A stretch of 47,650 nt of DNA from a virus, in the IMG/VR virus record IMGVR_UViG_3300042295_001659, positions 1-47,650 of that record; one strand, written 5' to 3'. Below the pieces are notes generated by a model, which saw only the letters and a program-made list of their open reading frames with translations, ran no database searches and had not been told where the DNA came from. Made by a program: the position numbers and the translations under genes. Positions 2,158 through 42,268 of the stretch are shown piece by piece (within the stretch, counting starts at the first letter, position 1; each line of letters starts with the position of its first letter).

Positions 2158-3933
2158 TTAGATCTGTGCGTCGACGGCTTGAATTGTGGCGCCGCGGTTG
2201 AGAATTACGAAGTAGTCCTCCTCGTATCCCTGAGGGACCTGATATGCGTGCACTCCCATTATAGCAGCGGCGTGGCCTGTGTCGTTGACAGGGACACCAG
2301 TTCGTTCTTTGGCCTGTCGTTGAATTTCGAAAGACCAATTGACGTAGTTGTCGAATCTCTCCTGCTGTGTTGTTCCCTCAAATGTCTTCACATTCGCATC
2401 GTTGCGGAAGGCGAAGGCGGTCACACGAGCATCAACTCCCTCGGCAGAGCCAGCATAATCTCGTGCTGTCTTCTCCGCTTGCTTGCGGTTGGAGTTGCTG
2501 ACTGGAGAGGCGGCGTAAGTGCCGTTTCCGTAGATTCCCTGGCCAGGATAATGAACTCCCCCATCATTGCCTAAACCGCGGAACTGGTCGGCAAATTGTT
2601 GTTCGGTGACTCCACGATAGAGGATGATCGGGTCGCCATTCGACTTCTTCAGGAGATCATCGCGGCGCTCAAGATCCCCGCGAGTGGCGACAACGACGGG
2701 CTTGGCGTCGTAGCCCTGCGCCTTGTAAATATCCGCGAGAGGGATAAAGTCGCGCTGTCTCTCAAGGCGGATGAGTTCGCCATTGAGAGTCATGCGGCGA
2801 TCGTCCATCGCCTGATAACCCTTCGTCTTTCTCTCCTCCCACGGCAAACCCTCGAGCTTTTTGAGCTTCTTGTCGAGCTCCTCAACCTCTTTCTTCTTCT
2901 CGAGATACTCACCAACCTTGGGGCCGAGCTTGCTGGTCGGGACGGGTTTACTCGAGCCAGGGGTGGAGGTGTAGGTGGGGGAGTTCTTTACTGCTTGTTG
3001 AGCACTCACGCCGAGAGCTTTCCGCTTCTCCATCTCAGCGCGAACGAGCTTCACGCGATAGGCTCGAAGAGCAACGAGTTTGTTACGATGCTCGATGGTG
3101 TCGAGCTCCGGATTCTCCATGAAGCTCTTCAGAGTTTTGATGCTCTGAGTGACGCTCTCGATGTCTTTGCCATACCACTGGTTCGGCAAGTCGTCGATCA
3201 TCTTCGAGATCTCCTTCCGGCGCTGCTCCTTCGGCATCTTGAGGCCTTGCTGACGCTCACGTTCCGCCCTCTCGAGGCGGTTCTTTTTCATGGCCTCAGG
3301 CTCTTCCTTCCACAGTTTGATTGTGGCTTTGGCGTGGGCATCGTCTGAAGGAAGATTATTGGCTTTGAATCGCTTATTAAGCTCATTCGCCTCCCTCCCA
3401 ACTCTCGAGGGTGGGTGGCCAAGTTCCTTGGCGTACTTATCACGGATATAATCCATGCTCTGCTTCTGAGCTTCGAGAATTCTCTTTCTCTCAGCCCACT
3501 CCTGAGCCTTCGTCTTTGGCGGCGCGGCGGCCATCGCTTTGTCCACCTTCGCCGCCACTTTCGGATTCACTGGACGAGCAACTTTCGCCGCGGGTGTGGC
3601 TGAAGGCTGAGCTCCCTTCTTGGCAATTATATCGTCAATTTTCTTCTTCTGATAATCGTAGAGGCGGGGATCCTCACGGAGTTGCTTCAGTTGGCCCACC
3701 GAGAGAGCCAGGAGACGCTTCTCGCTCCCGACCTTGGCACCACCCAACTTCCCAGCTTTCTGCGCAGCTGGAGCTGCCTGAGGAGCCTGCGAGGCCTCTT
3801 TCGCCCCGATCTCAGTGCCACTCTTGCATTTTCCGGCGGTGCCATAGACGGTGCCATTAGGCCGCTGACACCTGGTGAAGTCGAAGTAACCTCCATCCGC
3901 TGTCTGACGGAAGACCTCTTCGAGGTATTTCAT
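2158..3933 (-). CDS. Putative ADP-ribosyltransferase with Cys-motif N-terminus and coiled-coil middle
   Basis: A 591-residue protein in three parts. Residues about 17-42 carry the pattern DFTRCxRPNGTxYGT followed by GxCKSG, also present in the neighbouring protein encoded at 3930-4526. The middle (about 45-400) is rich in Lys, Glu and Ala and probably helical or coiled coil. The C-terminal region (from about 430) resembles an R-S-E type ADP-ribosyltransferase: YRG at 439-441 (candidate NAD-binding Arg440), GIYGNGTYAAS around 466-476 (the STS-like strand), and an acidic EED near 571 that could supply the catalytic Glu. No signal peptide is present. T4-type phages inject an ADP-ribosyltransferase (Alt) that modifies host proteins, and a similar role is plausible here. 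The enzyme call is moderate because I cannot align the fold; the operon context suggests late expression. Confidence 0.55.
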   Translation of the reverse strand: MKYLEEVFRQTADGGYFDFTRCQRPNGTVYGTAGKCKSGTEIGAKEASQAPQAAPAAQKAGKLGGAKVGSEKRLLALSVGQLKQLREDPRLYDYQKKKIDDIIAKKGAQPSATPAAKVARPVNPKVAAKVDKAMAAAPPKTKAQEWAERKRILEAQKQSMDYIRDKYAKELGHPPSRVGREANELNKRFKANNLPSDDAHAKATIKLWKEEPEAMKKNRLERAERERQQGLKMPKEQRRKEISKMIDDLPNQWYGKDIESVTQSIKTLKSFMENPELDTIEHRNKLVALRAYRVKLVRAEMEKRKALGVSAQQAVKNSPTYTSTPGSSKPVPTSKLGPKVGEYLEKKKEVEELDKKLKKLEGLPWEERKTKGYQAMDDRRMTLNGELIRLERQRDFIPLADIYKAQGYDAKPVVVATRGDLERRDDLLKKSNGDPIILYRGVTEQQFADQFRGLGNDGGVHYPGQGIYGNGTYAASPVSNSNRKQAEKTARDYAGSAEGVDARVTAFAFRNDANVKTFEGTTQQERFDNYVNWSFEIQRQAKERTGVPVNDTGHAAAIMGVHAYQVPQGYEEDYFVILNRGATIQAVDAQI

Positions 3934-4526
3934 CCCATCTCCTTCATGCGTTGACGAAGTTCACGATCAGCTTTGCGCTGAGCCGGGGTCATCATTGCAC
4001 GCTGCTCCTTATCATACTGGCGCCCACGGGCCCTAGCCGCTTTGTCATTTTCGCGGTCCGCCTGCTTCAACGCACGCTCAGCGTCGTTAGCGGCTTTGAT
4101 AGCCTCCTTGTAGCGAGCGCGCAGTTCTTTGTTTTTGGGGTCCTTCTTCAGTTCTTTCTCAACGCTGCGGTAGTTTTTCTCGGCTTCCTTCATTGCACGT
4201 GCGGCTCCCTTTGCTTTCTCTGAGCTCTGACGGTGTGCATCCTTGAGCTGGTTCTTATCCACAGGTGCTTTTGCTACGCGCGGCGCCTTAGCTTTAGGCA
4301 CAGCAGGAGCTTTAGCCTCAGCAGGACCCGATTGGCTGCCGCTCTTGCACTGACCACGTGTGCCGTAATATGTGCCGTTCGGACGCATGCAACGTGTGAA
4401 GTCGTAGACTTCTCCCTCTTCTGAAAAGTCGTATGCGCGCTCAGATGCGGCCAGTTGGAAGAGTTGCAGAGCTTCCTCTGAGAAGCCACCGAGGTTGGTC
4501 ATGAGAACGTCAGATTCCGTGTACAT
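3930..4526 (-). CDS. Helical protein sharing the FTRC/CKSG motif, function unknown
   Basis: A 198-residue protein with the pattern DFTRCxRPNGTxYGT followed by GxCKSG at about residues 42-65, nearly the same as in the next gene. It continues with a Pro/Ala/Lys linker and a long highly charged helical region (about 95-198) typical of a coiled coil. It overlaps the putative ADP-ribosyltransferase gene by 4 nt (ATGA). The longest reading starts at 4526, but a GGGTAATA promoter-like motif ends only 1 nt before that ATG, so translation may really begin at the ATG at 4502 (MTNLGGF). It may be a structural or packaged internal protein, but this is inference from the shared motif and operon. Confidence 0.7.
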   Translation of the reverse strand: MYTESDVLMTNLGGFSEEALQLFQLAASERAYDFSEEGEVYDFTRCMRPNGTYYGTRGQCKSGSQSGPAEAKAPAVPKAKAPRVAKAPVDKNQLKDAHRQSSEKAKGAARAMKEAEKNYRSVEKELKKDPKNKELRARYKEAIKAANDAERALKQADRENDKAARARGRQYDKEQRAMMTPAQRKADRELRQRMKEMG

Positions 4527-4552: not shown

Positions 4553-5365
4553 ATGGAAAAGATCGGAAGAATAGATATCGGAACCCCGGTAATCGAGAGA
4601 TTGCCGCCTCCCGTGATGCTGAGGCCTGAGCTCCCATCTCTAGCCATCCCAAAACCTGTGGTTGATGTGCCGCAGCCGAGAGTGGAATATCCCACTTTCC
4701 TACTCCCCCCACCGCTCTCCGCCCCAACTCCGCAAACTTCGGGGGAAACCGAAAAGTCGGCTCCAAAGAGGGAGAAGGATGTGGTGAAACCCCAACCTCA
4801 ATCGCCCCCCGTAATTCCACCAACACCCCAAGTCATTTTGCCCCCACAGCCACCTATTGAGATGGTTGAGTCACCAAAACCGATCGAAACTCAAAACACA
4901 ATTGAGATTGCGGGCCATGACATCAACGTTCCCACAGTGAAGGAGGTTGCTCAAGCTTCGACCACAGCCGTCATCGGAACCTCCGCAACTTTGGCGACCG
5001 CTATGATCTTCAATCAGGCAAGACGAGTCATGGGCGAGACTGTGAGTAAGGCCGTGAGGAATAAATTCAAGATCAAACTGAAGTACGTGAAGCCGGTCCT
5101 CCATATGGTTTATGAGAAGGACGGTGTTACCGTGTTGGAGTATTCTGAGGAGGGAGTGAAGACTCTTGCCACCTCTATCGAGAACCCAGAGCAATTTTTA
5201 CGAGACCTCATCCAATCAGACGAACTCTTCGAGGCGGACCATCGCATCGTCATCGACGAACCGATCAAAGCGCACTTCACGCGTGAAGGAGCGAAGAGGT
5301 TTAACTACTTCGCCCCATCAAAGAAGATGGCCAGAAGATTGGCCGCAAGAATCACTTTCGGTTGA
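4553..5365 (+). CDS. Proline-rich, probably membrane- or virion-associated protein
   Basis: A 270-residue protein on the plus strand. Residues 1-120 are very proline-rich (PPPVMLRPELP, PPPLSAPTP, VILPPQPP). A hydrophobic Ala/Thr-rich segment at about 130-155 (AVIGTSATLATAMIFN) could cross a membrane, and the basic C-terminal half (165-270) looks globular. I recognise the layout (proline-rich arm, then a membrane segment) from cyanophage genomes, where such proteins are thought to be structural; this is recollection, not a search. It is preceded by a GGGTAAAA motif and converges with the minus-strand gene ending at 5352, overlapping it by 14 nt. No enzymatic motif is visible. Confidence 0.75.
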   Translation: MEKIGRIDIGTPVIERLPPPVMLRPELPSLAIPKPVVDVPQPRVEYPTFLLPPPLSAPTPQTSGETEKSAPKREKDVVKPQPQSPPVIPPTPQVILPPQPPIEMVESPKPIETQNTIEIAGHDINVPTVKEVAQASTTAVIGTSATLATAMIFNQARRVMGETVSKAVRNKFKIKLKYVKPVLHMVYEKDGVTVLEYSEEGVKTLATSIENPEQFLRDLIQSDELFEADHRIVIDEPIKAHFTREGAKRFNYFAPSKKMARRLAARITFG

Positions 5366-18220: not shown

Positions 18221-21200
18221 TTACGCGAATGAGTTGTTCTGAAGTTGCTGCACCTTCTTCGAAGTGTAATCCCATACCATCTCTGCAACCGCACGTGGAT
18301 CTTGAACCCCCGAGATGTTGTTGGTGAGGTTTAGGGTGACGGGTGAATTGCCCCACTCTGACGAATTTGAGGTTACTGAGGCAATCGAAGCGCCGGCGGG
18401 AGCCATCATTCTCTCATAAGCCATCGCCGCGTTGGCGTTGGAGAACATTGTTGGGCTGCCCGGTCCACGACCAAAAGCGACGTGAACGTGGTTGTAGTGC
18501 GCTGCCGCTGCGTACGGAGGAACCTTTTTCCCGTTCTTGATACCAAAACCGAGGGGAGTATAGATGAGTTCGGTCAGTGAGGTACCATAGGTGGCGGCCA
18601 TCTTTTGTGCGAAAGCCATCATCTGCGGTGTTGGGCCCGTACCGTTAGAGTAGTCACGCGCACGGTTTGCACCATGGTAGCCGGGATCTCCAGGACGGTA
18701 ACCTGAAGTGATCTGCAGTCCCATGCTTTGAGCGAGAGCGGAGGCTGCTCCGAGGCTGCCCTTTCCTCCTCCGAGAGCGCCGCCGCCCATTCCCATACCA
18801 CCAGCAGCAGCTGTAGCCTTAATTGCGGAAAGAATCCTAGCATCGCCCTGAACACTCACCTGGATGGAACGATTGATCGCAGCAACCGTCATTTTTTGGT
18901 TTTGGGCAAATACTGTGGACAAATGGTTGAATCCTCTCGTTAAAGCCGCAACGACATCGCCCAGAGTATTGTTTAGTCCGCCGGCAGCGGGGATGATTGT
19001 CTCACTGTCGTTGGCGATTACGAGATTAGAGCCTTTTGGCTTATTGGCCATCTCATAGTTGATTGCCTGACCCAGGTTTCCTGCGAAAGGTCGAGCCGAG
19101 CCTTTTGCTAGCGCTGTCCATTCTCCGGAACTGCTCATCCACCCCTTTACCCCATTGCGGGTGAGATACCCGCCTCTCCCGCCAGACCCCGCGTCATTTG
19201 TTGTTCTCCGGTTCTCCTCGTAACCGGCCCTGAATCCGGCCATAGCTCCTTTCAACCAGTTTCCAGCGTCAGCGAGGGCTTTCATAAAGCCTTCTCTTGC
19301 GGCTGTTGCCAGGCGTCCCCAGCTAGAAGGATCGGATAAAACAGCAGCAATTTTGCCAATTGCCCCACCAATGGCAACTTTGACTCCTTGCCACCAGTTA
19401 TTGATTTTTCCAGGTAAACTACTGAACCAAATTCCTACACCGTCTGCCCAGTTCTGCAGCTTAGCTACTGTGGCTCCAATGGCCTTTCCTAGGTCAAAGG
19501 ATGAAATGCCCTCTTTAAGCCTATTAAGCCCATTTCCTAAGGCTGGTCCGATCTTGGCAAGATTCTCACCAAGCCAGCTCCCAATAGTTGAACCCAGCAT
19601 CCCACCGGCAACTGCTCCCACACCGGGAATAGGAATGAGTGCCTGTCCAATGGCGGCCCCAGCCAGTCCACCAGCTAGTCCGCCACCAGCTGACATACCA
19701 GCTCCGAGGTTGCTTTTTCCTTTGGCTTTTTGCGCAGCGAAATCTAAACCGGCGAAAGCAATGCTTAGAAGTGGTAATCTTTTACCAAGAGTCGTCACTG
19801 CTTTACCCGCCTTCGCGAGTTGCGGAGCATGAGTCGCAAGAGCAATCATTCCGGCGGCGATCGTGCTCACCCCCTTCATCTTAAGGTTTTTTGCGGCCCC
19901 CATCGCCTTTGCAACACCGGGGAGTCTGGCTCCAACACCTGCTGCATTTGCGGCTTGACCTGCAACGCCACCTCTTACTGCCGCGCCGAGGCCACCAGTA
20001 ATTGCACCACCGCCTGCTCCTCTAGGTAATTTTAGGCCCCTACCAACAAGGCCCATGGCGATTTTGCCAATAGCGTGGATTAGGAGTGGTGTGGCACCAG
20101 CAATGACCGCACTAACAAACGGCGGGCCAAAAGCAAGTGCCAGTGCTCCAAGAACGAATGGGCGCGCTTCCTCAGATGACAAAACAGACAGCAGAATGTC
20201 AGAGAGTTTTCTTAGGAAGGCGAAGAGTCCATCTTGAATTCCTTGTCGAGCTTTCTCAAAAGATCCGGGTTCCTTGAATGCCTCCATGAACCCTTGAAGA
20301 AACTCACTCTGAATTTTGCCCATCGCCCCTTTCGGGTCTGTCAGCATTCGAGCAAGATCGGCCATCGTCTCACCGAGAGTCTTGAAGATCTCTCCAACAA
20401 TTCTGCCAAATCCTTGCGCCTGGGTGACATCTCCTGCTCGCATGTCAGAAGCGACGTTGCGAAGCGTGACCGTCAATGGACCAAAAACGCGGTCGGTGAA
20501 CTCAATAATGCCCACAGCGAATTGGCTCCACACTGGGCCAATCGCACTCAGAGCATTTGTCAGTCCTTGAACAAGATTGGTGAAAGCGAAACTGAACGCT
20601 TTGAACGGGGTGCTGATTTTATCAGCGCCATCCTTGATGAGTTTGTCCCTTGTCAGGGTCGCTTGAGCAATATCATTTCTGAGTTGCTCTTTGCGCTTCT
20701 CATCGATTTTTACATCTTTGAGTTCCGTCTCATACGCCGCGATCCTCTTATCGTAGACCTTCTTAATCGCCGCATTGACATTGCCCTGTTCCTTCTTCGT
20801 GAAGGTGACGGCCATCCCCAAGATGCCCGCTGAGGGGTTGAAGATGGTGTCCTGAAGTCCTTGCAGTGATCCTGTGAGACTCTGCGCCATCGCCGCAGTC
20901 GACTCACTCGACATCGACTTGTTGAAGGCCTCCATCATTTTCGCCATACGCACGGCGTCGGTGGCATTCATCATCTCGGCCTTCTTCATCCCTCGGCCGG
21001 CAAATCCTGCCTGCTCGAGGTTCTTCATCAACATGATGTTGTCGGTGAAGAAGTCGATTGTGGTATCGATCTTGCCGCGTGTGACAAGGCCTTCAATACC
21101 AGCCGCCACACGGAACCCAGCTGATCCCGTTCCCTGGGAGAACAACGCTGCTTTTTCTAGGAACTGACCGTATTGAACAGCCGACGACTCGATCTTTTTA

Positions 21201-22012
21201 GGATCGATGTCCTTCATCGCGGTGCCTTTCTTTACACCCTGGGCCGCCAACATCAGCGGACCCATAGTGTCAAGGGTGTACCTCTGCAGTTCTATAACTT
21301 TAGCGGTCGGCGCTGCAGACGTACGGATCATCTCCGATACTTGCCTGTCATACGCCTTGTACATCTTTTCGGCGTCATTGTAGTCGCCTTTAAACCCAGC
21401 TAGACCGAAGGATCCCTGAATACCAGATGCCGCCTTAACATCGGCGAGCTCATCTTGCATCGCGTCCTTGAAGGTCTTTGCTACAATACCAGCCCCTTTT
21501 TGGGCTGTATTGACCATAGTCCCCATTCCGCGACTGAAGCCATTTGACATCGCGTCGCCAAAACGACTCAGACCCTCAGCTTTCAGAAGGGTTGTCATCA
21601 GGTCGTCGGCTTGACGGTTGGCGCGGCCTGCCGCCTCGCCAATTCCCATCACCTCATCACGAGCCCTGCCAGCAGCACGCGCAGCCGCTTCTAGTGACTC
21701 ACCGATGCCATCGAGTCCTTTAACTCCTTCGCCAATTTGAGAAACCGTATCCCTTACCTTACCAGCGGCTTTAGCAGCATCACCAAGTGAATTCTCAAGA
21801 CTGCGCACCCCTTTGGAAGCGCCTGAGAAGGTCTTGTCAAAATTCTTCGACAGACGGTTGAAGTCCTTATCGATCGACTTCAGACCCTGAGAGAAATCTT
21901 TGGTAAACGACTTGTTTAACTTCTCAATCTGCGTTTGAAGCTTCTTGAGTTTGGGAGTTATGTTATCCTTAAAATTCCCAACTAACGTAAATGTCTGCGT
22001 ATTCTCCGCCAT
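18221..22012 (-). CDS. Tape measure protein with C-terminal M15-type peptidase domain
   Basis: A 1263-residue protein, the largest in the tail module. The N-terminal 200 residues are coiled coil (LKKLQTQIEKLNKSFTKDF), and the middle has hydrophobic Gly/Ala segments (near 640-700 and 770-830) typical of tape measure proteins that line the tail tube and enter the host membrane. Near the C-terminus is a VanY/M15-like zinc peptidase signature: TSGYRPGD at about 1102-1109, then His1113 and Asp1120 (H-x6-D) and HYNHVHVAF with His1175/His1177. This should cut peptide bridges in peptidoglycan during DNA injection. By the usual tape-measure scaling the length suggests a tail up to roughly 180 nm. Confidence 0.9.
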   Translation of the reverse strand: MAENTQTFTLVGNFKDNITPKLKKLQTQIEKLNKSFTKDFSQGLKSIDKDFNRLSKNFDKTFSGASKGVRSLENSLGDAAKAAGKVRDTVSQIGEGVKGLDGIGESLEAAARAAGRARDEVMGIGEAAGRANRQADDLMTTLLKAEGLSRFGDAMSNGFSRGMGTMVNTAQKGAGIVAKTFKDAMQDELADVKAASGIQGSFGLAGFKGDYNDAEKMYKAYDRQVSEMIRTSAAPTAKVIELQRYTLDTMGPLMLAAQGVKKGTAMKDIDPKKIESSAVQYGQFLEKAALFSQGTGSAGFRVAAGIEGLVTRGKIDTTIDFFTDNIMLMKNLEQAGFAGRGMKKAEMMNATDAVRMAKMMEAFNKSMSSESTAAMAQSLTGSLQGLQDTIFNPSAGILGMAVTFTKKEQGNVNAAIKKVYDKRIAAYETELKDVKIDEKRKEQLRNDIAQATLTRDKLIKDGADKISTPFKAFSFAFTNLVQGLTNALSAIGPVWSQFAVGIIEFTDRVFGPLTVTLRNVASDMRAGDVTQAQGFGRIVGEIFKTLGETMADLARMLTDPKGAMGKIQSEFLQGFMEAFKEPGSFEKARQGIQDGLFAFLRKLSDILLSVLSSEEARPFVLGALALAFGPPFVSAVIAGATPLLIHAIGKIAMGLVGRGLKLPRGAGGGAITGGLGAAVRGGVAGQAANAAGVGARLPGVAKAMGAAKNLKMKGVSTIAAGMIALATHAPQLAKAGKAVTTLGKRLPLLSIAFAGLDFAAQKAKGKSNLGAGMSAGGGLAGGLAGAAIGQALIPIPGVGAVAGGMLGSTIGSWLGENLAKIGPALGNGLNRLKEGISSFDLGKAIGATVAKLQNWADGVGIWFSSLPGKINNWWQGVKVAIGGAIGKIAAVLSDPSSWGRLATAAREGFMKALADAGNWLKGAMAGFRAGYEENRRTTNDAGSGGRGGYLTRNGVKGWMSSSGEWTALAKGSARPFAGNLGQAINYEMANKPKGSNLVIANDSETIIPAAGGLNNTLGDVVAALTRGFNHLSTVFAQNQKMTVAAINRSIQVSVQGDARILSAIKATAAAGGMGMGGGALGGGKGSLGAASALAQSMGLQITSGYRPGDPGYHGANRARDYSNGTGPTPQMMAFAQKMAATYGTSLTELIYTPLGFGIKNGKKVPPYAAAAHYNHVHVAFGRGPGSPTMFSNANAAMAYERMMAPAGASIASVTSNSSEWGNSPVTLNLTNNISGVQDPRAVAEMVWDYTSKKVQQLQNNSFA

Positions 22013-22019
22013 GTTCTAA

Positions 22020-22781
22020 TTACCTACCTGGTGTAGCTGGAGTGTTTCGGGTCGCGTTAGCTGTGTTCACAGCTGTGTTTTGAGCCGCGGCTTGCTGTTG
22101 AGCAGTATCGAGATTTCCACCAAGAGCTTGGTCTCGTCCGCTATCAATTTGATAGTCTGGGACCTGACGAAACGCCACGCTCACTTTAGCTCGTGTAGTG
22201 GATCCGGTCAAATCGCGCATCTCCTCTTTGAAGTCGATGCTTTCGATGACGTAGTTTCCGTAGGTTCGTCCACTTCCCGGACCCTGTCCAGCGTATACCG
22301 TGTAAACTGGTACGTTCACGAATCCGCTCTTCGAGTCGAGGACAACTTCCTGCATTCTGAAGAGATCCTCAATCGGCTGGAGAACCTGCTTCCCGAGTGT
22401 GAAACCCTCCATCAGAGCGTCTCCCAACGTCAGTTCGCCGGCGTTGAGACTGCTGACAGTCACTGGGGGATTGTTGGTTCCGAAGATAGAAACCTGATTT
22501 ACTTCGGCAGACTGGGAGTACCCGACATCAGCCGGAGCGGTAATGAAAACGAAAGAGGTGGAGTTCGATCCCGCTGCGGGGGTATTGAGTAGATCTCCGC
22601 CGTAGTCCGGGATGTTAGGAGATGTTCCGAATCCACCAAAATTCTTGGCGTTTTTGGCCCAACTGTCTGTCAATGACGAGTCAAGATTCAGACTGCCAAT
22701 TCCAGCCGAGTTAGAGTAGTTTGACAGATTTGCGTACGATGCGTCAGCCGCACTAATTCCTGAGAATCCTGAGAATGACAT
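22020..22781 (-). CDS. Tail or baseplate protein (gp53/XkdP-like position)
   Basis: A 253-residue protein just upstream of the tape measure gene. The N-terminus is Ser/Asn/Ala-rich (MSFSGFSGISAADASYANLS), followed by a compact beta domain (about 70-200, including YGNYVIESIDFKEEMRDLTG and KVSVAFRQVPDY) and a Gln/Ala/Thr-rich tail. The phrase IESIDFKEEMRD followed by a beta strand is reminiscent of XkdP/gp53-like tail proteins, but there is no LysM motif. It overlaps the upstream gene by 1 nt (TAATG). Function inferred from position. Confidence 0.6.
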   Translation of the reverse strand: MSFSGFSGISAADASYANLSNYSNSAGIGSLNLDSSLTDSWAKNAKNFGGFGTSPNIPDYGGDLLNTPAAGSNSTSFVFITAPADVGYSQSAEVNQVSIFGTNNPPVTVSSLNAGELTLGDALMEGFTLGKQVLQPIEDLFRMQEVVLDSKSGFVNVPVYTVYAGQGPGSGRTYGNYVIESIDFKEEMRDLTGSTTRAKVSVAFRQVPDYQIDSGRDQALGGNLDTAQQQAAAQNTAVNTANATRNTPATPGR

Positions 22782-39361: not shown

Positions 39362-40405
39362 TCAGAATACTGGTGTGTCGATGATTGCGATATCGAACCC
39401 AACGAGTCCTCCCTTTAATCCGATATTGTATAAGCCCGCGTTGCTCCAGTCATTCCACAAAAGCGTGGTCCCACTGGAGTTCCGGAAGCCTTGCGTGGTG
39501 AATGACAGGAGCTGAAAGTCGCAGTAAGTAACGGCTTTTCCCGCACAAGTGATAGACTGGTTCTTCTCACCAGTACCCGGTGGAAGCTCCGACTGAGTTC
39601 CAGTAAGCAGACCGTAATTAGTGTTGGCTAGAGCGTTTTGGAATGTAATACGAACAATAGGATTATTAGGGTCATTGATGAATGACACTGACGAAATGTT
39701 GTATGACTCAAGTATTGTGAAAGTCGCCGGCGTCGAACCTTGATCGCATGAAACGCAGACATAGGCCAAAATGGCTGCTTTAGCCAAAGATCCATCAACT
39801 GAGATTGTGCCATCAGGCGCAATTGCAATGCCCGCGCCAACACGCACCGAACCAACACTCAATCGAGTGGCCAAAGCTGCTGAGATCGTACCAGTTGATG
39901 TCAACGGTGACGGCGAACCGATAAGACCGGGGCCAACGTTGATACTTTGAACACCGAATCGTGCTGTGGGGATCGAGATGATGCCTGCAACATCAACATC
40001 GATGTTGTCACCAACAATCACTCCACCTTCTGTGGTTTTAGAGGCTGGTTCAAGATCGATTTGGCCTGTGGTAGTGATTGGGCCTCCAGAAAGACCTGCT
40101 CCAGTCAGAATTCGAGTGACTGTACCCGAGCTTGCGTCAGGAGGAATGTTGTCGAGTTTGGATTTGTCGGCAGCGGACATGCTTCCCGCTGCGTTGATTG
40201 TCGCGGGGAGAATAGAAACGACGGCGTCTTCGGTTCCATTCGATACCACAATTGGCAGGAGGCCCGTGACTGACTGAACCCCCAATGGAGAGAAAATCAG
40301 CCAAGCTTGAAAGGGCTGGCTCCACATGTACTGGAGAGCACCAGGTTGCGCCGGAACCGGATAGAGTTGCCCATCGACTGGGTTGAGGGGGAAAATGTAA
40401 GCCAT
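39362..40405 (-). CDS. Tail fibre protein (FP-NP-GQLYP anchor)
   Basis: A 347-residue protein starting MAYIFPLNPVDGQLYPVPAQ. Residues about 50-215 contain GGxITTTGxIxLxPAS and IxVxIDGTI-type fibre repeats; the C-terminal part (from about 220) is a distinct beta domain with VRITFQNALANTNYGLLTG. Likely one of several alternative fibre subunits. It overlaps the next fibre gene by 1 nt. Confidence 0.75.
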   Translation of the reverse strand: MAYIFPLNPVDGQLYPVPAQPGALQYMWSQPFQAWLIFSPLGVQSVTGLLPIVVSNGTEDAVVSILPATINAAGSMSAADKSKLDNIPPDASSGTVTRILTGAGLSGGPITTTGQIDLEPASKTTEGGVIVGDNIDVDVAGIISIPTARFGVQSINVGPGLIGSPSPLTSTGTISAALATRLSVGSVRVGAGIAIAPDGTISVDGSLAKAAILAYVCVSCDQGSTPATFTILESYNISSVSFINDPNNPIVRITFQNALANTNYGLLTGTQSELPPGTGEKNQSITCAGKAVTYCDFQLLSFTTQGFRNSSGTTLLWNDWSNAGLYNIGLKGGLVGFDIAIIDTPVF

Positions 40406-41169
40406 TACTCGAGAGACACTCCGTAAAATGTGGCTCCAGCTGGGGGAGCGGTTGTGAATAGGATGAGGGAACCGTTTGTTGTGAAGTTAGTTGGGGCGGC
40501 TTGAACAACACCTCCAACAAAAATGAGAAGAGATGAGGTGGAATTGGGCGTGTACGGCACACCCGAAACCGTCATCGTGAACGATAGTTGAGCCCCGTTA
40601 AACTGTGGAGCCAAGGTGTCCAAAACTATGAAGAAACCCGTGCTAACAGTGTTAATTGTTCCGTCGGGGTCAATGGTGATCCCCTTTCCGGCCTTAACTC
40701 CCCCTAAACCGTTATTTCTCGGTGGAGTCAGAGAGATCACGCCTTGAGAACTTACCTGAGTTCCTGCGCCCGGTTGAACTCCCCCGAGAGAAATATCCGT
40801 GGCGGGGAGGAGATTGATGGTACCAGTTGTTGTGATAGTTTGGTTTGCGCCTGGAGCACCAATTCCGATACCGGCAGTAACCCGGGTCACGGAGCCAGCT
40901 CCGGACGGTGGGATAGACTCAACTTTCCGCTTGTCTTCAGCCGACATTGAGCCAGACTGGGTGACAGTTGCGGGTCGTATCGCAACGATGGGATCCCTCG
41001 GTGGACCATCAATGAAGATCGGCGCCTGTCCACTAACACTCTGGATCGTATTAGTTACGGTTAACCAGGTTCCTTTTGTGGCGTTGTAAGTGTATTGTTG
41101 AGCGCCAGGGATCGGAGGGTCTGGATAAAGCTGGCCATCAATGGGATTGTTTGGGAAATTAAGAGCCAT
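40405..41169 (-). CDS. Tail fibre protein, short (FP-NP-GQLYP anchor)
   Basis: A 254-residue protein starting MALNFPNNPIDGQLYPDPPI with a single set of fibre repeats ([37 protein letters not shown]) and the shared C-terminal domain (LLIFVGGVVQAAPTNFTTNG ... PPAGATFYG). It is the shortest complete fibre with both modules, so it defines the minimal unit. Confidence 0.8.
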   Translation of the reverse strand: MALNFPNNPIDGQLYPDPPIPGAQQYTYNATKGTWLTVTNTIQSVSGQAPIFIDGPPRDPIVAIRPATVTQSGSMSAEDKRKVESIPPSGAGSVTRVTAGIGIGAPGANQTITTTGTINLLPATDISLGGVQPGAGTQVSSQGVISLTPPRNNGLGGVKAGKGITIDPDGTINTVSTGFFIVLDTLAPQFNGAQLSFTMTVSGVPYTPNSTSSLLIFVGGVVQAAPTNFTTNGSLILFTTAPPAGATFYGVSLE

Positions 41170-41170
41170 A

Positions 41171-42268
41171 TTAGAACCCCAAAGCCTGCCCGTTAAAAGT
41201 CGCCCCAGCCGGCGGAGCTGAAGAGAAAACGATATTACTTCCGTTTAGTGAGTACGCAATGTTTGGTGTTTGAAGAATACCACCAACTGCGACAAAAAGT
41301 GAGTTTGGAGAGGATGGAGCATAGACCTGACCGCCAACTCTCATTGGGAAACTTGTTTGAACGCCGTTGAAAGAAGCGGAGATGTCGTCAATTTGTTGGA
41401 ATGACTGACCGTTTGGAATAAACAAGCGCCCACTGAAGGTTGTTCCGATCGGTGGTGGAGCAACGAAACGGATTTCTTGATTGTTGATAACGGCGAAAGT
41501 CGCAGGAGAAGGCTGCAGAATTCCACCTAGAACGATGAAGAGGTTGGCAGGCTGTGAGACTGTGGCGGCGTTTCCACCGATCCTTAGCGGGAATTGTGTA
41601 CGCGTTCCATCAAAGAGCGTGCTGACATCGTCAAGCAGCGCAAATGATCCCGTAGAAGAACCTTGCCCAGCGGCACTAATGGTACCATCGGGAGCGATTG
41701 TGATATTGTTTCCCGCCTTAACGCCACCGATATTTCCATCAGTCGGAGGACGCAAAAATATAGTGCCGGTAGTTGTTATGGTTCCGCCGCCGAGTCCTGA
41801 ACCCGCTGTGATTTGGGTCACTCCGGAAAAGGCTTCGAGTGTGCCATCGGGGAGAATTGTTACCCCTGCGCCAGGTTTGACTCCACCGATCTCGTTTCCA
41901 GTTGCGGGCTTGAGGCTGAGAGTGCCACTTACAGTGATTGGGCCACCTGTCAGGCCCGTGCCGGAGTTTACGCGCGTAACGGAACCGACTCCCGTTGTGG
42001 GGATGGAATCCAATTTTTGTTTGTCGGTAGCTGAGAGTGAACCAGCGGCAGAAGTAGTTGCGGGGCGGATGTTAACAACTGGGACTGTGGCGGTACCAGT
42101 AATTACAATAGGCTCATTACCTAGAACCTGCAGAACGGCTCCGGAAACAAGGACCCAAACGCCTTTGGCCTGTATCCATTTGTACTGAAAAGTCCCAGGG
42201 ATCGCAGGATTGGGATACACCTGGCCATCAAATGGCTGATCTGGGAAATTATACGGAGTAAATGCCAT
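41171..42268 (-). CDS. Tail fibre protein with duplicated C-terminal domain
   Basis: A 365-residue protein starting MAFTPYNFPDQPFDGQVYPN (anchor), then fibre repeats (LTGGPITVSGTLSLKPA, GLGGGTITTTGTIFLRPP, IGGVKAGNNITIAPDGTI). It then carries two tandem copies of the C-terminal domain: LFDGTRTQFPLRIGG ... PPIGTTFSG and SFNGVQTSFPMRVGG ... PPAGATFNG. The duplication is a clear internal module copy. It heads a four-gene unit behind the GGGTAAAA at 42302. Confidence 0.8.
   Translation of the reverse strand: MAFTPYNFPDQPFDGQVYPNPAIPGTFQYKWIQAKGVWVLVSGAVLQVLGNEPIVITGTATVPVVNIRPATTSAAGSLSATDKQKLDSIPTTGVGSVTRVNSGTGLTGGPITVSGTLSLKPATGNEIGGVKPGAGVTILPDGTLEAFSGVTQITAGSGLGGGTITTTGTIFLRPPTDGNIGGVKAGNNITIAPDGTISAAGQGSSTGSFALLDDVSTLFDGTRTQFPLRIGGNAATVSQPANLFIVLGGILQPSPATFAVINNQEIRFVAPPPIGTTFSGRLFIPNGQSFQQIDDISASFNGVQTSFPMRVGGQVYAPSSPNSLFVAVGGILQTPNIAYSLNGSNIVFSSAPPAGATFNGQALGF

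Follow-up and report, generated by a model that had tools for sequence, protein, structure and literature searches.

A two-cysteine N-terminal tag on otherwise different phage proteins: a candidate loading module for virion-delivered effectors

The stretch of DNA analysed here (the window) is a 47.65 kb virus record in which two overlapping minus-strand genes, ORF A and ORF B, encode proteins that carry a similar cysteine-containing motif near the N-terminus, referred to below as the type A tag. The genes and their features are arranged as follows:

2158..3933, minus strand: ORF A, 591 aa, with the Cys tag, a basic linker region and an ADP-ribosyltransferase (ART)-like C-terminal domain
2161..2745, minus strand: ART-like C-terminal domain of ORF A, residues ~397-591, with invariant YRG, GIYG and DY...LNRG
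3805..3882, minus strand: type A tag of ORF A, DFTRCQRPNGTVYGTAGKCKSGTEIG, containing both cysteines of the protein
3930..4526, minus strand: ORF B, 198 aa, with a leader, the Cys tag and a basic body that is probably coiled-coil
4326..4403, minus strand: type A tag of ORF B, DFTRCMRPNGTYYGTRGQCKSGSQSG, containing both cysteines of the protein
4419..4427, minus strand: second FSE motif of the ORF B leader, YDFSEEGE, a candidate head-protease site
4476..4484, minus strand: first FSE motif of the ORF B leader, GGFSEEAL

The stop codon of ORF B and the start codon of ORF A overlap in an ATGA (GGATGAAA), and both frames are open. The first-pass annotation had placed both genes correctly, and its observation that these adjacent proteins have an N-terminal cysteine motif in common is borne out, with 19 of 26 tag residues identical and no cysteines in either protein outside the tag (C22 and C36 in ORF A, C46 and C60 in ORF B). 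From its tag onward ORF B has a pI of 10.1, and its real start is probably the second ATG, at 4502, giving 190 aa, because homologues begin M-x-x-LGGF[ST]EEAL. A six-frame scan of the window finds no third copy of the tag. ORF A contains one copy (residues ~71-107), and its homologue in stretch L098 two copies, of a short helical segment, LxxLxxLRxDxRLxxYQKKKIDxIIA, that is possibly a small linker or DNA-binding module; similar repeats are present in a tagged kinase-like protein (L054).

The window is probably a fragment of a cyanophage like Synechococcus phage S-CBWM1, judging from a primase that is 55% identical to that of S-CBWM1 and from the gene order primase, dCMP deaminase, sigma factor and ribonucleotide reductase (RNR) beta, which is that of S-CBWM1. 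No head genes are recognised in the window, and the S-CBWM1 capsid protein has no match there. Downstream of ORF A and ORF B lie a pyrimidine-dimer-glycosylase-like gene and RNR beta, syntenic with S-CBWM1. Because the tag genes thus adjoin nucleotide-metabolism and DNA-repair genes, the late-type operon proposed in the first pass cannot be claimed; no T4-like late promoter was found near the pair, and sigma-70 and terminator matches there are at chance level only.

The C-terminal domain of ORF A is plausibly ART-like, though the support from modelling is weak. Here, the transferase-like character suggested earlier is retained on the strength of fold matches that are weak but consistent, while a Pfam ART match is absent; the Pfam ART families matched by other tagged proteins are PF03496 and PF01129. 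The only profile matches of ORF A are phrog_16619 and, weakly, phrog_25212, and a sequence search of the domain against solved structures gave nothing relevant. The domain model has a pLDDT of 64, its best Foldseek match is cholix toxin (weak, E 0.06), and VIA-align gives weak matches with Z ~5 over 116-141 residues to many ART toxins. With respect to the catalytic residues of R-S-E or H-Y-E transferases, YRG and GIYG are invariant among homologues of the domain and the last acidic position is [EQ]D, but the S-T-S motif is not clear. Membership of the family of T4 Alt, which the first pass had named as a parallel for injection with the DNA, was considered and rejected for ORF A, which does not match the Alt-like RNA polymerase ADP-ribosyltransferase family phrog_802; it is another tagged protein, in L036, that matches this family (E 6e-9). 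The C-terminal part of ORF A is homologous to part of the P-SS2 minor head protein ORF030 (34% identity, E 2e-21). Mass spectrometry of purified P-SS2 virions detected ORF030 with an average of 96.5 peptides, and the authors name it major capsid protein (PMC2784084). That peptide count is for the whole of ORF030, and the available text is silent on coverage of the part homologous to ORF A (PMC2784084). One of the weak matches of ORF A to ART folds is PDB 9k3a_B (Z 4.7), a pre-ejectosome protein of cyanophage A4 and a possible precedent for an ART-like domain inside a cyanophage particle.

The type A tag has the consensus DFxRCx[RK]P[DN]G[ST]xYGTxGxC[RK]xG, and at least 119 IMG/VR stretches carry it as a correctly spaced DNA pattern. 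The same pattern gives 3 matches in the genomes of 84,980 prokaryote species, one of them apparently by chance, and among 50,697 phage records convincing matches occur in S-CBWM1 alone (two entries, one phage), in gp39, annotated as an NMN adenylyltransferase, and in gp165. Across 20 tag records there are 1 to 15 copies per record, where one record, G009, is apparently a mirrored assembly and so is counted double; along this contig of 40,250 bases (L024, L043) the tag positions are mirrored, probably as an inverted-duplicate assembly. The first tag cysteine, although it lies outside the search pattern, is invariant in 121 of 121 distinct cores, and the residues invariant across divergent genomes are C, G, Y-G-T, G, C and G. 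Modelling predicts a helix, an irregular stretch with FSE and then a strand-turn-strand hairpin, with the first cysteine inside the first strand and the second just past the second strand; no convincing structural match to this fold was found, nor any description of the tag among the open papers examined. L128, from a Prochlorococcaceae MAG contig of 83 kb, also encodes a tag-like motif (336-539), in a protein that appears to have a signal peptide.

The tag is a swappable module on effector-type proteins. Leaders of 84 aa that are 93-99% identical sit on at least six bodies with no detectable similarity to one another, while a protein in L098 has a body 75% identical to ORF A over 534 aa but an ORF B-like leader (L098, like the other relatives of ORF A in L049, L068 and L057, was recovered through the tag search). 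In L070 and L310, a single polypeptide consists of a tag, an NMNAT-like domain, a second tag and a second domain, and large tagged multi-domain proteins, present in L041 and L082, include some with both type A and type B tags, the latter described below. The first-pass notion of one N-terminal tag on otherwise different proteins is strongly supported and extends to many unrelated bodies in many phages, where kinases, ARTs, NMNAT-like domains and coiled coils are attached to it. Among 99 tagged proteins, Pfam matches comprise protein kinase (12), ADPrib_exo_Tox (8, best E 1.8e-14), ART (7), other kinase families and cytidylyltransferase-like domains (4), tallies in which one protein may match several related families. 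Other tagged bodies, identified by eye only, contain HExxH or are HNH-like. Taken by its domains, this cargo resembles known injected effectors.

The bodies behind the tag are almost free of cysteine. Type A bodies contain 19 Cys in 31,860 aa (0.06%), with none at all in 112 of 122, as compared with 1.23% in untagged ORFs on the same contigs, a set of mechanical ORFs that may include some spurious ones; the depletion holds in composition-matched bins. Within S-CBWM1, cysteine makes up 1.37% of annotated non-virion enzymes, 0.63% of annotated virion proteins and 0.09% of tagged proteins outside the tag. Capsid and tape-measure proteins are Cys-free too. Long Cys-free ORFs of the window include 4553-5365 (plus strand), 18221-22012, 22020-22781 and 40405-42268 (all minus strand), and among its Cys-free ORFs are a tape-measure-like one and two tail-fibre-like ones.

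A second motif, the type B tag, follows the same cysteine rule with four cysteines, C-x2-G-x2-C[GN]-x2-C[IV]-x5-C. It is found in at least 120 IMG/VR stretches (L193-L306) on kinases and other proteins, whose bodies have 0.11% Cys, and is absent from the window. In S-CBWM1 (L159, L160) it is N-terminal in three kinases and gp106 and lies close to the N-terminus in gp174; the annotation of gp161 leaves out its type B tag, the likely start being near 117830. The three tagged kinases have zero Cys outside the tag, against 7 in 293 aa for the untagged kinase gp173, and kinase annotation is associated with the tag in this phage (3/4 vs 4/174, p ~1e-4, a post hoc comparison). A homologue of gp174 in S-TIM5 is an annotated virion protein, but it lacks the type B tag and is therefore uninformative on the tag.

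A tripeptide, F[STAG]E, recurs in the leaders of tagged proteins and in the head protease of the same phages. In S-CBWM1 this head maturation protease is gp170 (phrog_976, E 4e-67), which has a long C-terminal part, labelled scaffold from its architecture. Homologues occur in 10 of 19 other tag records (11/20 counting S-CBWM1), and these records also have the capsid protein in common; the capsid gene of G002, G006, G007 and G010 is matched in separate pieces, as if interrupted by an intron or intein. In the protease-scaffold, F[STAG]E is observed 63 times where shuffles predict 10.1, a stronger enrichment than for any other tripeptide class tested, and includes a near-invariant GTLxF[SA]EGE site. 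Upstream of type A tags it is observed 107 times versus 12.5 expected, these shuffle and Poisson figures being descriptive, since they treat related sequences as independent and overstate that independence because the tags are inherited modules. Per 100 aa, the tripeptide occurs 1.77 times in leaders, 0.138 times in untagged ORFs and 0.090 times in bodies, a ~13-fold enrichment of leaders, most often ~6-10 residues ahead of the tag Cys. It is present in 82 of 131 leaders and absent from 49, those of ORF A and gp39 among them, and modestly enriched before type B tags (10 vs 4.4). Within S-CBWM1, gp170 has the most copies, and among proteins with at least two the tagged gp165, whose gene lies a short way upstream of those for sheath, portal, protease and capsid, has the highest density; many tag genes are not adjacent to head genes. 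No site of this type lies near the N-terminus of the major capsid protein. A derivation of the leader from the scaffold C-terminus was rejected, as profile comparison gave no homology beyond the tripeptide. The protease-scaffolds (L181-L190 and gp170) have just 2-5 Cys, mostly with one in [NS][YF]CEGL[ED]FGTL immediately before the conserved FSE site; this cysteine is a possible thiol partner of the tag.

We propose, with a probability of roughly 0.6, that the type A tag is a module for loading effectors that the virion delivers. Four features point indirectly to packaging: F[STAG]E is enriched in both leaders and head protease-scaffold, tagged bodies have hardly any cysteine, the C-terminal domain of ORF A has a homologue in a virion protein of P-SS2 detected by mass spectrometry, and the cargo is of the injected-effector type. 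Cleavage, thiol chemistry and delivery are, like packaging itself, what we infer. The packaging role first suggested for the window pair thus gains indirect support from these features and loses the late-operon argument, which fails here; a literature search found no virion proteomics for S-CBWM1 or any tagged protein. In the proposed mechanism, the N-terminal leader, made up of a short helix and an F-[S/A]-E-containing linker, would carry the protein into the prohead, where the phage head maturation protease would trim it after Glu, as T4 gp21 does with capsid targeting sequences. Cleavage cannot be obligatory for every tagged protein, because the ORF A leader is without F[STAG]E. A compact two-cysteine hairpin would remain on the protein after trimming, and its thiols may provide the cargo with its sole disulfide, metal site or cross-link; this would account for the scarcity of other cysteines in the bodies. 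Kinases, ADP-ribosyltransferases, NMNAT-like enzymes and basic coiled coils, carried as cargo, would enter the host along with the DNA at infection. For the overlapping genes of the window, ORF A would supply an ART-like cargo, and the basic coiled coil of ORF B would be either cargo or a core protein. If this is true, the type A tag would be a new signal for capsid loading, and for many cyanophages and related phages a sequence tag would allow the injected effectors, which currently have to be found one by one through virion proteomics, to be listed from DNA; it also raises the chemical question of why tagged proteins lost nearly all other cysteines.

A more elaborate scheme, to which we give only tentative credence, is a thiol-based capsid loading code. 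Here, type A (C-x13-C) and type B would be interchangeable marks, the cargo would be purged of cysteine so that only the tag cross-links or binds metal, the head protease would trim both scaffold and leader, and release in the host would be by redox. The cysteines could instead be a redox switch, the tag pair being read by host thioredoxin or the light-dependent redox state to toggle effectors that are made in the cell and never packaged. Two invariant cysteines on an otherwise Cys-free protein would suit such a switch, as would a cargo of enzymes, but tags on coiled coils, the different four-Cys motif of type B with the same Cys rule, and the F[STAG]E common to leaders and head protease-scaffold are left unexplained, and we consider the switch unlikely. 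Comparably improbable is an address outside the capsid, whereby the tag binds a host or phage structure in the cell (nucleoid, membrane or RNA polymerase) or an outer part of the virion (tail or baseplate). One tag on many bodies is expected from any common docking site; however, the motif link to the scaffold points to the head, and a tail or host partner is not indicated. That leader and tag persist as a swap-promoting recombination cassette with little protein function is very improbable: frequent leader swapping and many copies per genome fit, but specific tag residues are conserved across divergent genomes, and cysteines are purged far from the tag, a pattern accounted for by selection on protein chemistry but not by recombination.

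The loading module would resemble the capsid targeting of T4 and P1, although membership in either system is not established. Both T4 gp21 (L/I-X-E) and phiKZ gp175 (S/A-X-E) cleave after the Glu of a short motif (PMC9026906). The gp21-processed T4 internal proteins (IPI-III and Alt) and the tagged proteins both have an N-terminal leader on otherwise different proteins, a Glu-ending motif that recurs in the scaffold or core protein of the phage concerned, and ARTs among the cargo. The T4 internal protein leaders are 10-19 residues long with L/I-X-E, whereas those of tagged proteins mostly exceed this length and usually contain F[SA]E, with F[STAG]E rather than L/I-X-E as the enriched motif; the tagged proteins further differ in their two-Cys module, up to 15 tags per record, Cys-free bodies and a packaging that is so far putative. 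In phage P1, the N-terminal 30 residues of DarB suffice to direct a reporter into the capsid, but DarB is one large cargo without a short tagged family, and a Cys tag is not reported for it. Polyvalent and MuF-fused effectors are likewise phage-borne, predicted to be injected and built from the same kinds of domain. In contrast, the two proteins of the window are short, their tag is separable, and they have one recognisable domain (ORF A) or none (ORF B) in place of the two or more effector domains of a polyvalent protein; the word "cysteine" is absent from the polyvalent-protein paper. P-SS2 ORF030, a virion protein of 1500 aa, has its ART-like region fused to a head protein and lacks the Cys tag. 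By eye, ORF030 (L003 3470-7969) contains an apparent MuF-type domain, a zeta-like kinase and a second ART-like region.
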